From contig NC_089856.1 in assembly GCF_036373705.1 (NCBI RefSeq), positions 13,732,501 through 13,796,500 on the forward strand: a stretch of 64,000 nt of DNA, given 5' to 3'. Source of the DNA: Amia ocellicauda. Its lineage: Eukaryota; Chordata; Actinopteri; Amiiformes; Amiidae. The translations under genes and the position numbers were made by a program. This document shows, in pieces, positions 2,634 through 47,000 of this stretch. Under the pieces are notes generated by a model. That model saw nothing but the letters and a program-made list of their open reading frames with translations. It made no database searches and was not told where the DNA came from. Every line of letters begins with the position of its first letter. Position 1 is the first letter of the stretch.

Positions 2634-5600
2634 TATTTAATTGCTGTATATCACCTATATACAGGTTTGCAAACGGTTCCTGAAAGTGTTTATGTTGTCA
2701 AAGATGGTTTGTCAGTGTTTTCTCCAGCTGTACACAGAGGCTGGTGGGGGGGTGCGAGTGGGAGGGGGGGGCAGGAGGACAGAAAAGAACAGCACGCTTT
2801 CAGTGTAAAGCAGTTTCAGACTTTCTAAGCCATGCTCTCCGCACCCTGGCCCAGCAGAGGCAGCGGTCTCTCCTTCAGAGTCACTCCAAACCCACCAAGA
2901 GGACACAGTGCCACTAATGAGAAGGGAGAGGGACGTCTCTCCAGGACCAGGGCTGCATCGTCGCACACGGCCATCACCTGTCATAAACATGACGGGTCTC
3001 TGAAACTTTAAAACTCCCCCTCGCCCATTACAGCAGAGCACCCAGCAGTGCCATCCCCGCACCACGATGGCTGCACCCAGTCACGCTAGCAGCAAGTTTC
3101 GGGAAAAGAAAAGTATATACACACACACTCACTGTCCTCAGAACAAAAAAAAAATACACATGTAAAATCAGGGTCAGAATAATAAGGATGAAAAAAATAT
3201 ATATATATTACCCTTTCAGGTCTTTTTATGTCTTTTCTCTCAACAGGATTAACAGTAGTTCAGTTGTGGCAATCCCAGTCCTAATCCTACCCAGTTTCAT
3301 TAAGATCAGCTACCATTTCACACAGCCCCTCTTCAGAAGCCTGATGAGTCGCACACACCGACACCGCAACACATCGCCTGTATGTCGACTGCGACTGTGT
3401 TTTAGTACAGAGAGACTGCTCAGATGAACCTGCACCCAATACACTACACTGAGGCTTGGCTGATAAATAGAGAGAAACTAGAGTACACATAACGCTCTAG
3501 TTAATGTGTCCGCATATCATTTATTTAACATTTTAAAGGGTGCTGCTACTTCTGCGACTCCACAGAAATCAAGATGCATTCACATACACGTTTGCGTGTG
3601 CCTCACTTGCCCAACGCCTACCCTCCCCCTGGCTGCCACGGACAGAATTAAAAATGAGAATCCAGTGTCCCTCAGGTCAAGCTTCTGCAGTGGGAGCTAC
3701 AGATGTGTGTATTAAAAAACAAAGTATTCACACATACTTACATACATACATATACAAGTACTTATTCAGTATAATGCATTTTCTAAATACTGTACATGTG
3801 ATGCAGAGGGTCAGCCCAAATGGGTCCAGCATAGTCTTCTGCTTTTGCTTTATTTATAGTTTTTCTAGTGCTCTTCCCACATCTCCTGCAGAGAGGACAT
3901 GACTGAGCATCACTGCTCCTAACAAAGACTGCTCTGAGGAGACTAACTCACCTGTACCAATTCTGATCAAATTAAATTAAAAATAAAAACAGCAGGTTTT
4001 AAAACCCTCACGGAGGAGAAAAATAATAAATTAGATCAGAGACACTTTGAGATCAAGAACAGTACCTTCAAGTTTACCCCGTCACTCATGAGATTTAAAA
4101 GGAAATATAAAATAATGAATCATTCAAATTAAAATACCCACAAAATAAAATACAGCAGATCAGTTTTTTGTAGAGAGGAAAATTAAAAAACCATTAAAAA
4201 TATTGAACAACCACATTATTAATATTATCAACATCAAAAAAAGAAATGTACAACTTATTTACATTTTGCATATAAAGGAGGTAATGTTTTTCACTCAGGG
4301 AGTTGTGTGTGTGTGTGTGTGCGGGGGGGTAAGTTACCTCCGAAAGAGAGGGGTGTGTAAAGAAAGGGGATAGGATGGGGGAGGGGTTGAGAAATGTCCC
4401 AAACATTTGAAATTGGGAAGAAAAATCCAGTTTGACTCAAGACCTCAGCCCCGAGAATCCAGTCTTTCAGTGTTCACAGCTCAGTTAATTAATGGATTCA
4501 CTAATTAAGGACCAATTAAGTAATTGGTAAACTCCAAGACCATAGTTATCAACTCTGCAGGGTCCCCTGTAAAAAAACGTAGTTGGGGGGAGTGTAAGAC
4601 TACAGTCCCACCACCAGGGGGAAGCGTTTTCACATTCAGACGTACAGCTCTGGTCAATTGCAACCAAAATATAAGCAATTCCTTAGGGCAACGTAAAAAC
4701 GTACCATTCGTCCATTCAGCAGGGCAGCGCTAGAGACACGGGGGACAAGACTTTTACAGCATTTACACCAGTGTGTTTATCTTTGAAACCTCCAGTTTTC
4801 CACATTAAGGGATTCTTTGTAATCTGGGTTAAATCTCCCACAAACAACCACTTTGCCTGGGGAAAAATAAATAAATAAATAAAACCAACGAAAGGGGGAT
4901 CAGAGGATCAATGTTTTGATTTCAAGTGCTTGGAGGAGGGAGATGCGGGGGGGCGGGGGGAAGAAACACAAACATGCATTCTTTTTACATATATAAAAAA
5001 ACAAAAACACAAAGAAGAGTATTTAGTCCATAATGCAGTGTTGGGGTATTGTGGTTTTTGTGCTTAGTGTTTTTCTTTTCATTTCACAGATGTCTTGTTT
5101 CAAGGTTGCTCATTTTCAATTCAGCAGGGTTGTGTGGGTAATAATAATAATAATAATACGATCATCATGACATTTGCCTGCCAGTATAAATCAGGTGTCG
5201 GTTACTTGGACGTTTGCAAACAACTTAATCAAACAAAAAGAGAATTAACTATAAAATTCCAGCAGAATCGCCCTCAGACAGTCCCTCTCAATCTCTGCGT
5301 ACGAGCAACCCTGCAGGACTGCACTCACACCCAGGGAAAATACATTCAGAACTAGGAATTCAAATTCAAAATTAAATTCAAAATTATTTTACCCCCCCAA
5401 CCCAACACCGTACTACATATCTAACCTGGTTAAGGGTCAACCTCCTACTCTATACGTCAACTGCACCCCACGATGTGACAGCAGTGGGTGGGAGCCCTAA
5501 GGGAGAGCAGATCTGACAGACGGATAATAAATTAAAGTCTAAAACAAAAAACCTATAACTGTACAAAGAGAAACAAACAAACAAAAGTGGGCAGTGGAAA

Positions 5601-5810
5601 GGGCAGGGGATGGAGGAGGGACTGGGCAGGCCTGGGGGGCAGGGGAAGGGGTTAACTCAGTAGTTTTGGCTAAAATCATTGAGGTAGTCACAGCTCGAAG
5701 AGTTTGTGGCTTTACATCTGGCACGCGTCTCCCGATCCTCGCTTCGTCTTCCGCCACGCCTCCGTCCACTGTCGTTGTGCGTTCCGCGCCCCTCTCTCTC
5801 CCTCTCCCGC
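2634..5810 (-). other. ACVR1B: ACVR1B 3' UTR (limit uncertain)
   Basis: No coding sequence is visible here. Candidate poly(A) signals on the minus strand are AATAAA at 3849-3854 and 3520-3525 and ATTAAA at 2634-2639; a UTR of 2-3 kb would resemble mammalian ACVR1B. The sequence is AT-rich with A-tracts and an (AAT)n run near 5140-5157. The farthest candidate comes within about 330 bp of the PRKAG1 poly(A) signal, so the two genes converge tightly. Confidence 0.45.
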
Positions 5811-18660
<12,850 letters not shown>

Positions 18661-34898: not shown

Positions 34899-35006
34899 CT
34901 CTTAGAGCTGTTTTCCTGTTTCTGGTCGGGTTTTTAGTTTTTTTTTCTTTCTCCTGGCTGAGTTGAATACAGTATTAGAGGGCGCCCTAAAAACAGCATT
35001 CGCGTC

Positions 35007-35065
35007 ACATCAATCAATCAATTTGTATTTGTATAGCGCCTTTCGTAGGGTAGCCAAAGAGGGGA
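35007..35065 (-). mobile_element. LINE/SINE 3' end
   Basis: CAATCAATCAATTTGTATTT followed by GTATAGCGCCTTTCGTAG is the reverse of the common fish retroposon end 'AAAGGCGCTATACAAATA...'. Only about 60 bp is recognisable. Confidence 0.6.
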
Positions 35066-35140
35066 CTGGGTAAAACCAGGATCGCCGGACCAGTGGAAAG
35101 ATTTACAAAGACGTCCAAAACAGAAAAAAAAACTACTTAT

Positions 35141-35249
35141 TCTGGGCTTTCAGAAACTTTTTTTTATAATTCATAATATTGTTTTACATAGTGTAAATAT
35201 TATTAATAATGAACTTTAATTCGTATACATACGAAAAAGTGTATACAAC

Positions 35250-35303
<54 letters not shown>

Positions 35304-36319
35304 TATACAATTTTTCTACAATTTGTTTAACTGAGCAGAATTTGTAAAAGTAATAATGGCACTAAGGTTCAATAGTGCTACAATAGTTTCATTCTGGGGA
35401 ACTATTTTTGGAACTGGGAACAGATCCCCAAACTAGTGTCCCTATTGTTTCCATTTACTCTACAATTGAGAGATATTAGCTTTCCAAGGCTTGCTTGAAG
35501 ACTATTGATAGCAGAAAGAGTCCCCTTCTAAAGTACAGTAGTGTTATTCTGGGATGCTATTTGTGGAACTGGGAATAGACACCCAAACTGGTGACCCCAT
35601 GCCATAATGTCATATTTTGAAGTGCACTGTGAGCGTTCTGAGGATTCCTTTCTAATATTTAAAATAAAGTCCCCAAAACAATTCCTGCTCCCTTTGATAG
35701 CAGTAAGGGTCCCCTTACAGCAAAACTGGTGCCCAAATGCCACAATTTCATATTTGTAATTGCATTTTAAGCATCTGAGGCTGGCATTCTCTTATTTAAA
35801 AAAAAGTCCCCAAAACCATTTTAGGTGCTATTGATAATAGAAAGGGTCCCCTTCTAAAGTAAAATAGTATTATCCTGGGGAACTATTTGTGGAACTGGGA
35901 ACCGTTTGTGTCTTAAATTGCATTGGGGGTCCTCTGCCTCTACCTCTACATGGTAGTTTCAAGTAACATACCCATGAAAGTATGCAGAAGACCCCCCTGG
36001 CCACAAACTAGATGAGGAGAAGGTTATCATGAAGCTGAAAAGACTGTGTAGAGCAGTTTGGCTGTCTATTCCCAGTTACCATAAACCAAAAATAGTTCCC
36101 CAGCTATTGTACCTTAGTGCCACTATTACTTTTACAAATTCTGTTCAGTTTAACAAATTGTAGAAAATGTGTATACATTTATTATTATTATTATTATTAT
36201 TATGATTATTATGATGATGATTATTATTATTAGCAGTAGTAGTAAAGTTAATTATTAATCTAATTTACACTATGTAATACAATATTCTCAATTAAAACAC
36301 AAGTTTCTGAGAGCCCAGA
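35141..36319. mobile_element. 1.18-kb palindromic element with internal repeats
   Basis: Left arm 35141-35430 and right arm 36050-36319 are inverted copies of each other. Matching words include TCTGGGCTTTCAGAAAC / TCTGGGCTCTCAGAAAC, TTACATAGTGTAAAT, TGTATACA, TTCTACAATTTGTT, AGAATTTGTAAAAGTAAT and GGGGAACTATTTTTGG. Each arm holds an (AAT)n tract. Between the arms are about three imperfect direct repeats (starting near 35385, 35518 and 35708-35844) with GGGTCCCCTTCTAAAG, TGTGGAACTGGGAA and AAAGTCCCCAAAAC, and a central mini-hairpin (GGGGGTCCTCTGC at 35934 with GCAGAAGACCCCC at 35981). No transposase is encoded and no clear target duplication is seen. It is most like a foldback or non-autonomous DNA element. 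Confidence 0.75.
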
Positions 36320-36786
36320 TTTTGTTTTGTTAAAATATGATACTTGTTTGACATTATTCTGTATGTATTCAAATGAGTCCCAGTTGTTCTCAGCATGTTT
36401 TCCTGTGTGGGTGAAATCCCAGAGAAGGACATGTGGTATCACATGCTGAACGTTTTAGGAAGTGAATGTACATCACAATGTCTCCATGTGTTCACCAATA
36501 TGGGAAGGATACTGTTCTTCCAGTAAAATAATAAAAGAGCATTTCCCATTATGTATCTTGCTTTTAAAATTTATGATTGATTTTTAATTTTTAATCTTAT
36601 TTCAGTTGTGTGTTAGATGATTGCTAGTCTTGTATGGTGTAATGAAATGAGAGTCTTTGGACTAGACCAAATCAAAACTCGGACCTCCCAACAAAACGTA
36701 ACTTACAAACTACTTGATGGCTTTTTGGTTTATGTAACACAATTGTAATATTGATGGTAAGTACCATTTGGATACAGACTTCAGAC

Positions 36787-40212: not shown

Positions 40213-40609
40213 TCATATTTTATTGGCTTCAGTTCTTTCCATATTTATCTCCCAGTGGCACGTCTGCTTGGTCCCACATTCCTTCAGCTCACGTCTCTGA
40301 GTCCACTTCAACCACTGCTGGACATATCACAGCTGCTGCACAGCCATGCACCCCCAAAACACAACCTAAAGTAATAATCAAAATAGTAACTAGAATTGAA
40401 AATATCTGAAGATGCTGTGTCTGCATGTGATGGTACATTTTTTATGATATATTATGGAATATGTGTGTATGTTACTACTGTTTCAATTACCAACCATCAC
40501 TGATGGTTAACCTGCACACTACTGTAAAAATAACACATATCCCATAATATTTCATATAGGAAGTACTGTCCCATGCAGACAGAGTATCTTCAGACACTTT
40601 AAATTCAAG

Positions 40610-40618
40610 TTGTTGTTG

Positions 40619-40717
<99 letters not shown>

Positions 40718-44081: not shown

Positions 44082-47000
44082 CTGGGGAGAGGGAGAGAGA
44101 GAATAGGATGGAAAGTGATGAGGAGAGTGGGAGAGGAGGAGAGGTGGCAAGAGCCGTGGATGTGGAGAGGTGGAAAGGGAGGGTAGGGTGAGGGACAGAG
44201 AGAGAGGAGAAGTGGGAAGGGAGTGTGACAGGGAGGGACAGAGAGAGAGTCAAATTTGTTCCCTAGCTTCTGAAAGTGCTTTCTGTTTTCTAGATACACT
44301 TTTGCCCCCGCTAGTGGTGAAAAAAGTACAAACACTAGGAAATCCAGCACTTGTACTACAGAGGAAACTGTCTGATTTCACCCAGACTTGCTCAGGAGGG
44401 GTTATGCAACTGTGCAGCTCGACAGGACTGCTGTAGAGTCACTGACTGGACTGGACTGGACTGTCCTGCTGCAGATTCACTGACTGGAATGGACTGTCCT
44501 GCTGCAGAGTCACTGACTTCACTGTAGTGCTTGGGAGATAGTAATTTCTGCCTTTGTGGTCTTGGGAACTGATGGACTGGGTCTTGTTGGACCTTCACAC
44601 AAGCTGGGCTGGGGACAGTGCCCTCAGGTGACCTCACTGAGGACCTGCATCCAAAACACACACCAAAATATCCCAGAGGAAGGCAGAGACACATACATAA
44701 CCAATATAAATAGAGGCTGTGGCACTGGACTGGGGAGGGATACCTGACCTCATGGCAGCATGGCTGGGCTGAAGAGCGCCATGGTGAGTTGATGCCGTCA
44801 CTGCAAATAGACCCAGAAGGGTTCAGTAATTCCACAGGGCTAATCCACAGAGATGGGGGGGGGGGTGGATTACAGGGTGGGATCAGAGAAGGCCCTGTCC
44901 TCACTGCCCCCACCTTAAAACCCCCAGGACTGACGTCACTGCCCCCCCTCACCCCATCTCCCACCCTCCACCCTAACACTGACACTGCAGCCTGCAGTTG
45001 CGGATTATCACACCCAACAGTGTTTCTGGATCTGAGCCCCCCCCACCCACGTGTTTCCTGCTCTTAATGACAGCCAATTGCTGTCTTCCATTGAAGTGTT
45101 TTGTCAGATGACAGCAGACACCTTCTGCTCCACTCCACTCTACTGGGCCCTAAACCCTGATGGCAGCAAACGAATTAGGTCATTTAAGTAACTAGCCCTG
45201 GTTCTGTTTTTTTCTGTCCCAGATCGCTACCTGCTCCATCGCTTGGGCTTCATTAGTCCAGAGCACCTGAGTGCCAAAATGACCAACAATTTCCCCAACT
45301 GCCCCAGCCCACCCCAACAACAAAACCTATCCCACTCTAACAACTGCTCGACCCCCAACCTCCACAAAACCTAACCATGGTCATCTGCCCCATTCCCCAC
45401 TGCCAATCCTCCATATTAACCCCCCAGACCCACCGGCCATCATAAGAGCAGCCACACATTCATTGCGCCCCTGCATGGCTGCCTTGATGAGTGCTGTGAA
45501 GCCCCGTGTGTCCCTGGCCTCCATCTCCACGCCAGGGAAGTAGTTGAGGAGGTAGTTGACGATGGTGATGTGACCTACAGAGAAGAGGGAAGTTAGGACT
45601 TAAGTACGGTACTCAGAGTTTGTACGCTCTCTGTCCACTGAGCTGCTGTGACCGAGGGTGGCCATCACTCTCAACCTTCTGTCTTTGCCACCCTCAGCCA
45701 TCCTGCTCCTGACCCAACCCATGATCCCACCCACCCCAACGCAGTGGATAAATAAATACATACATACATACATACATACACTCACCTAAAGGATTATTAG
45801 GAACACCATACTAATACTGTGTTTGACCCCCTTTCGCCTTCAGAACTGCCTTAATTCTACGTGGCATTGATTCAACAAGGTGCTGAAAGCATTCTTTAGA
45901 AATGTTGGCCCATATTGATAGGATAGCATCTTGCAGTTGATGGAGATTTGTGGGATGCACATCCAGGGCACGAAGCTCCCGTTCCACCACATCCCAAAGA
46001 TGCTCTATTGGGTTGAGATCTGGTGACTGTGGCGGCCAGTTTAGTACAGTGAACTCATTGTCATGTTCAAGAAACCAATTTGAAATGATTCGACCTTTGT
46101 GACATGGTGCATTATCCTGCTGGAAGTAGCCATCAGAGGATGGGTACATGGTGGTCATAAAGGGATGGACATGGTCAGAAACAATGCTCAGGTAGGCCGT
46201 GGCATTTAAACGATGCCCAATTGGCACTAAAGGGCCTAAAGTGTGCCAAGAAAACATCCCCCACACCATTACACCACCACCACCAGCCTGCACAGTGCTA
46301 ACAAGGCATGATGGATCCATGTTCTCATTCTGTTTATGTCAAATTCTGACTCTACCATCTGAATGTCTCAGCAGAAATCGAGACTCATCAGACCAGGCAA
46401 CATTTTTCCAGTCTTCAACTGTCCAATTTTGGTGAGCTTGTGCAAATTGTAGCCTCTTTTTCCTATTTGTAGTGGAGATGAGTGGTACCCGGTGGGGTCT
46501 TCTGCTGTTGTAGCCCATCCGCCTCAAGGTTGTACATGTTGTGGCTTCACAAATGCTTTGCTGCATACCTTGGTTGTAACGAGTGGTTATTTCAGTCAAA
46601 GTTGCTCTTCTATCAGCTTGAATCAGTCGGCCCGTTCTCCTCTGACCTCTAGCATCAACAAGGCATTTTTGCCCACAGGACTGCCGCATACTGGATGTTT
46701 TTCCCTTTTCACACCATTCTTTGTAAACCCTAGAAATGGTTGTGCGTGAAAATCCCAGTAACTGAGCAGATTGTGAAATACTCAGACCGGCCCGTCTGGC
46801 ACCAACAACCATGCCACGCTCAAAATTGCTTAAATCACCTTTCTTTCCCATTCAGACATTCAGTTTGGAGTTCATGAGATTGTCTTGACCAGGACCACAC
46901 CCCTAAATGCATTGAAGCAACTGCCATGTGATTGGTTGGTTAGATAATTGCATTAATGAGAAATTGAACAGGTGTTCCTAATAATCCTTTAGGTGAGTGT

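Follow-up and report, generated by a model that had tools for sequence, protein, structure and literature searches.

Foldback DNA transposons, whose long inverted arms consist in part of tandem repeats, have been described in flies, nematodes, sea urchins and plants. As far as the sections of the reports drawn on here describe them, Tetris of Drosophila virilis makes target duplications of 8-10 bp, has units that grow into satellite arrays and has had no transposase found (PMC4079207). Foldback FB4 of Drosophila melanogaster makes 9-10 bp duplications, and its transposase is given there as unknown (PMC2955051; PMC8277862). In the nematode element Tm1 the duplications are mostly of 9 bp, and some copies encode a Phantom-type Mutator transposase (PMC3169594). 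Galileo of Drosophila occurs in chimeric copies with non-matching flanks and has generated chromosomal inversions (PMC3573991); further binding sites for the THAP domain of its transposase have been identified in the tandem repeats of the arms (PMC3688188).

FB4 has been judged likelier to be a MULE, a type described as rare in animals (PMC8277862). In the sections used here, a survey gives target duplications of 8-11 bp for the MULE groups, reports limited evidence for MULEs in chordates and asks whether they are truly absent from vertebrates; the MuDR reports in Repbase from zebrafish and mammals are held there to be misidentified (PMC6446971). Among the literature matches listed for the present analysis, none described a foldback element of this kind in fish or other vertebrates.

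Results

Arms and bounds of the window copy

The DNA analysed was a 64,000-nucleotide stretch of the Amia ocellicauda genome (the window). A first-pass annotation made from its sequence had placed a palindromic element at 35141..36319, consisting of two inverted arms, imperfect direct repeats and a small hairpin between them, an AAT microsatellite at the same place in each arm, and no ORF. These structural claims were borne out. BLAST returned 35141-35434 and 36055-36319 as an inverted pair, and a MAFFT alignment of 35141-35440 with the reverse complement of 36049-36319 showed the arms to be 86% identical (226 of 262 aligned bases, with 47 gap columns and the AAT tract counted in). The palindrome is beyond chance, the top inverted BLAST score in 34901-36600 being 221 bits compared with a maximum of 48.2 among 100 first-order Markov shuffles.

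The bounds of the element were revised on one side. On the left, family homology reaches past 35141 to a terminus at 35062, which was located by comparison with other copies and begins GGGACTGGGTAAAACC. The right limit of 36319 was retained. It is where the match to the family ends, and the right end is therefore truncated, the right arm being without its outer ~79 bp. The outer terminal domain (35062..35140, plus strand) aligns with the ends of other copies and has no counterpart in the right arm. It is followed by the inner part of the left arm (35141..35378, plus strand), which is present in other copies and forms an inverted match to 36104-36319. The shortened right arm (36055..36319, minus strand) lacks the spacer, the inverted inner domain, most units and the outer terminal domain seen elsewhere in the family. 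Judged by its modules, this copy derives from a fuller element by deletion.

A second inverted repeat was observed at window positions 40372-40627, with 104-nt arms (76% complementary) and a 48-nt loop, adjoining a (TTA)n tract. It is possibly a MITE-like palindrome.

Internal parts and coding potential

Between the arms of the window copy lie imperfect tandem units (35379..35902, plus strand). Direct-repeat pieces of 67, 74 and 138 bp were found with identities of 81%, 86% and 76% at offsets of 155, 326 and 138 bp; the units lie here at offsets of 138 and 155 bp and measure ~190 bp in less reduced copies, L014 among them. The units are followed by the inner domain (35906..36056, plus strand), of whose length 21 of 28 loci retain 75% or more. 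It includes the small hairpin at 35925..35996 (no strand assigned), whose folding energy is -15 kcal/mol, compared with -8.6 (sd 2.2) in 200 shuffles, two of which fold as well (z -2.9).

The longest ORF wholly within the palindrome is 71 aa, and a coding centre was ruled out, as the four ORFs tested had no Pfam match at E<=1. An RNA gene was likewise ruled out, the window having no Rfam match at the gathering score. A search of four of the 28 loci (L003, L005, L014 and L020) against Rfam at E<=0.1 gave a single match, mir-297 in L014, which lies outside the element and under its gathering score. The long copy L013 was considered as a source of the family's own transposase. Nevertheless, its ORFs at 5510-6521 look, by their motifs, like an inserted Tc1-type element, presumably Tc1-like ORF fragments within a foldback copy. 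Elsewhere in the window, two adjoining ORFs on the minus strand at 45811-46851 (175 and 170 aa, measured between stops) appear to represent a Tc1-type transposase, and further ORFs presumably resemble a TGF-beta receptor kinase and an ankyrin-repeat protein.

Dispersed copies

When the 1179-base segment was searched for in the 988-Mb genome it comes from, 40 of 327 candidates were scored and 141 matching pieces were recovered. These were grouped into 40 loci on 16 contigs with the window copy counted. Sequence was read for 28 of the 40 (L001-L028), with 1.5 kb of flank for L001-L008 and ~3 kb for L009-L028. The sample is a non-random one, made up of the best-scoring copies. The other 12 scored loci comprise seven of the eight members of a cluster on contig C21, four of the five members of a cluster on C18, and one locus on C27.

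The two clusters, C18:23665544-23728593 (five copies) and C21:2273061-2387486 (eight), hold 13 of the 40 scored loci; spacing on C18 includes 4515 and 9030 bp. The clustered copies probably sit in larger tandem or segmental duplications and were multiplied together with their surroundings. The other 27 loci are scattered.

Family plan and deletions

The 28 loci yield a common modular plan. It runs from an outer terminal domain through an inner terminal domain that carries the AAT site, a second inner piece, tandem units (~190 bp each, up to five in L014), an inner domain of ~150 bp and a short junction to a spacer of ~120 bp, after which the same modules follow inverted. The fully symmetric form is a composite, since both arms are complete in no single copy among the 28 loci, and would correspond to the ancestral element. 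L005 comes nearest to it: it has an outer domain at each end, units to either side and two inner-domain pieces.

By the module criterion, the outer terminal domain is present at both ends in five of the 28 loci (L003, L005, L012, L020 and L021), at one end in 12 and at neither in 11; a longer query adds partial outer-domain pieces in L016, L018 and L023. Tandem units occur in both arms of L005, L020 and L021 and in one arm of many copies. In L003 the spacer is retained but units and inner domain are both missing from the short arm, and in the window copy the inner domain runs directly into an inverted unit fragment. With different modules missing from these two, different copies carry different deletions.

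The spacer is found in both orientations. Where it is near-full and adjoins the inner domain, it lies one way in seven loci (L002, L003, L007, L009, L011, L013 and L015) and the opposite way in L014; L012, having inner-domain pieces on both sides, was left out of this count. Partial spacers, with L024 as the majority and L004, L006 and L020 reversed, were given little weight because part of the spacer resembles the units. The spacer may have been flipped by recombination between the arms.

AAT tract

The (AAT)n tract of the left arm (35250..35302, plus strand) corresponds in position to the (TTA)n tract of the right arm (36179..36232, minus strand). An AAT/ATA/TAA triplet run of at least 9 bp occurs in 20 of 22 arms examined, the exceptions being L016 and L022, as a raw count in arms that are AT-rich. 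Four arm remnants without both inner blocks (L012, L013, L021 and L027) are omitted from the count. In the alignment most of the runs sit between the same conserved blocks, and the run counted for L019 lies elsewhere. The longest, of 51 bp, are in the window left arm and in one L005 arm. The microsatellite thus seems to belong to the element, which is one of the options that the first-pass annotation had offered.

Termini, flanks and target duplication

A GGGACT-type terminus was found in 13 of the 20 arm ends listed, that is, those whose match begins no further in than base 25 of the query; one of the 13 reads GTGACT, and the other seven ends are degraded there. L021 has a further end, GGGATT. 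Inverted termini GGGACT...AGTCCC are seen in L020 and, with mismatches, in L003, whose left terminus is mutated to CGAACTGGG. Beyond the termini, the flanks appeared by eye to be unrelated between copies.

Just left of the element terminus in the window, after an AATC run, lies the 17-mer TTTGTATAGCGCCTTTC (35028-35044). It presumably resembles a common fish repeat, and at up to two mismatches it is absent from the other 27 loci read.

A 9-bp target duplication is clear in one of the five two-ended copies, partial in a second and missing from the other three. With fixed ends, L003 shows CTCAGGAGC/CTCAAGAGC (8/9), compared with 3/7, 0/8 and 2/10 at 7, 8 and 10 bp; moving one of its ends by a single base makes 8 bp fit at 7/8. 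L020, with GT-rich flanks, gives 6/9 at 9 bp and 4/7, 0/8 and 1/10 at 7, 8 and 10 bp. At fixed ends 9 bp is the best length in both, and these are the copies with both termini recognisable. L005, L012 and L021 match at 3, 2 and 3 of 9 flank bases, each having one degraded end whose position was extrapolated. Flanks that do not match are seen in chimeric copies of Galileo as well (PMC3573991). At the family end of the window copy no matching 9-mer flank was found. These data support transposition with a stagger near 9 bp, the clear case being a single copy.

Divergence and age

Divergence was calculated for pieces covering at least 75% of a module. Mean divergence from the consensus is 7.1% for the outer domain (n=11), 5.7% for the inner domain (n=21), and 7.5% (n=18) and 5.0% (n=19) for the other two arm modules; single pieces range from 0.8% to 16.9%. 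Matches of 90-93% had raised the suspicion that the inner domain is specially conserved. This was dropped, as 5.7% falls within the 5.0-7.5% of the other arm modules.

The tandem units are 16% divergent (n=18 and 49). A tree was built from 60 units, each 100 bp or longer. As judged by eye, units with the same place in the arm mostly cluster together across loci, rather than units of one locus; exceptions include a pair formed by two units of L003. The tandem duplications therefore probably preceded the spread of the family. The copies look like the product of one old burst.

Discussion

The element shows long inverted arms, arm tandem repeats of variable number and dispersed copies with common termini, all features of foldback elements. 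It is very probably a non-autonomous foldback-type DNA transposon, present in the window as a deletion derivative. This agrees with the first-pass reading of a foldback or non-autonomous DNA transposon, for which many dispersed copies with the same ends and a constant target duplication had been named as supporting evidence. The dispersed copies and shared ends were recovered at the scored loci and at most of the listed termini. The target duplication fared less well, with one clear and one partial case among five.

A one-off inverted duplication without mobility would explain why the window copy has neither a target duplication nor a right outer end, but it is contradicted by 39 other scored loci with homologous pieces on 16 contigs, many sharing the end, and was discarded as next to impossible. 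Spread of the family chiefly by segmental duplication instead of transposition has its basis in the 13 of 40 loci clustered on C18 and C21 and in the C18 spacing of 4515 and 9030 bp. Nevertheless, the scatter of the remaining 27 loci, the constancy of the terminus at the intact ends read and the apparently unrelated flanks make it very unlikely. When the window modules alone are used, many copies seemingly end just past the inner domain, as would an asymmetric element such as a Helitron. Helitron ends are TC...CTRR, with no inverted termini. Here, most copies share a spacer after the inner domain, which in L005 and L012 continues into an inverted inner-domain piece, and the inverted termini of L020 and L003 are likewise at odds with such an element. 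A Helitron, at the very edge of plausibility, and with it any Helitron- or SINE-like end at this point, was dropped.

Within the foldback reading, the choice of mover is less certain. The 9-bp duplication suggests the Mutator superfamily, which is the likeliest, with slightly better than an even chance. The same kind of foldback element could instead be moved by a P-superfamily transposase, as is Galileo, similar in its long arms with internal repeats and in its recombinant and solo-arm copies (PMC3573991). As described in the sections drawn on here, P-like Pdre elements occur in zebrafish, as does a THAP9 transposase for which activity has been reported; zebrafish Pdre2 has 13-bp ends of the CATACCTG type and 8-bp duplications, whereas the ends here are GGGACTGGG (PMC10983969). 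The one-base shift that lets L003 fit 8 bp would suit this alternative, but the fixed ends of L003 and L020 give 0/8 and 0/8 at 8 bp and 3/7 and 4/7 at 7 bp. A P-superfamily mover is considered unlikely.

For a foldback element moved by a Mutator-type enzyme, the likeliest mover, the following steps may be proposed. A transposase made elsewhere would act in trans on the GGGACTGGG termini and perhaps, by analogy with Galileo, also on the repeated arm units. The element would move by cut and paste, inserting at cuts staggered by about 9 bp. Once inserted, its long inverted arms could recombine and break, so that the spacer flips, an arm shrinks or is lost, and the number of units varies.

A Mutator-class foldback family in a vertebrate is a tentative proposal with a less than even chance of being right. 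Should the 9-bp duplication be borne out and this genome contain a MULE-type transposase with these termini, the family would bear directly on the question, raised in that survey, of whether vertebrates truly lack MULEs (PMC6446971). If the mover is not of the Mutator type, the result adds one repeat family to the genome annotation. A vertebrate family with many half-lost arms also provides material on the decay of long palindromes.

The first-pass annotation had called the internal repeat structure unusual. This was not upheld: such repeats are typical of foldback elements, as described for Tetris (PMC4079207). Tetris and FB4 were likened to the present family by description and not by sequence. 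In the sections of the reports drawn on here, Tetris has arms made of a flanking domain, tandem units and an inner domain around a variable non-coding middle, with few structurally complete copies, as in the present family; it differs in its units of ~220 bp, compared with ~190 bp here, in the AAT tract found in the arm here, and in its host (PMC4079207). FB4 is also a palindromic, modular, non-autonomous element, and differs, as described, in the number and sizes of its modules (PMC2955051; PMC8277862). Tm1 of root-knot nematodes has foldback-like arms with repeated motifs variable in number, and non-autonomous forms, some without one terminal motif; unlike the family described here, its repeated motif is ~14 bp, and its terminal motifs are asymmetric and of 7 bp (PMC3169594). 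Galileo shares long internally repetitive arms and the occurrence of two-arm, recombinant and solo-arm copies, but its P-superfamily transposase is known and its duplications are of 7 bp (PMC3573991; PMC3688188). The present family, which may already be named in repeat libraries, is thus an addition to the known architecture of the Foldback, Tetris and Galileo type.
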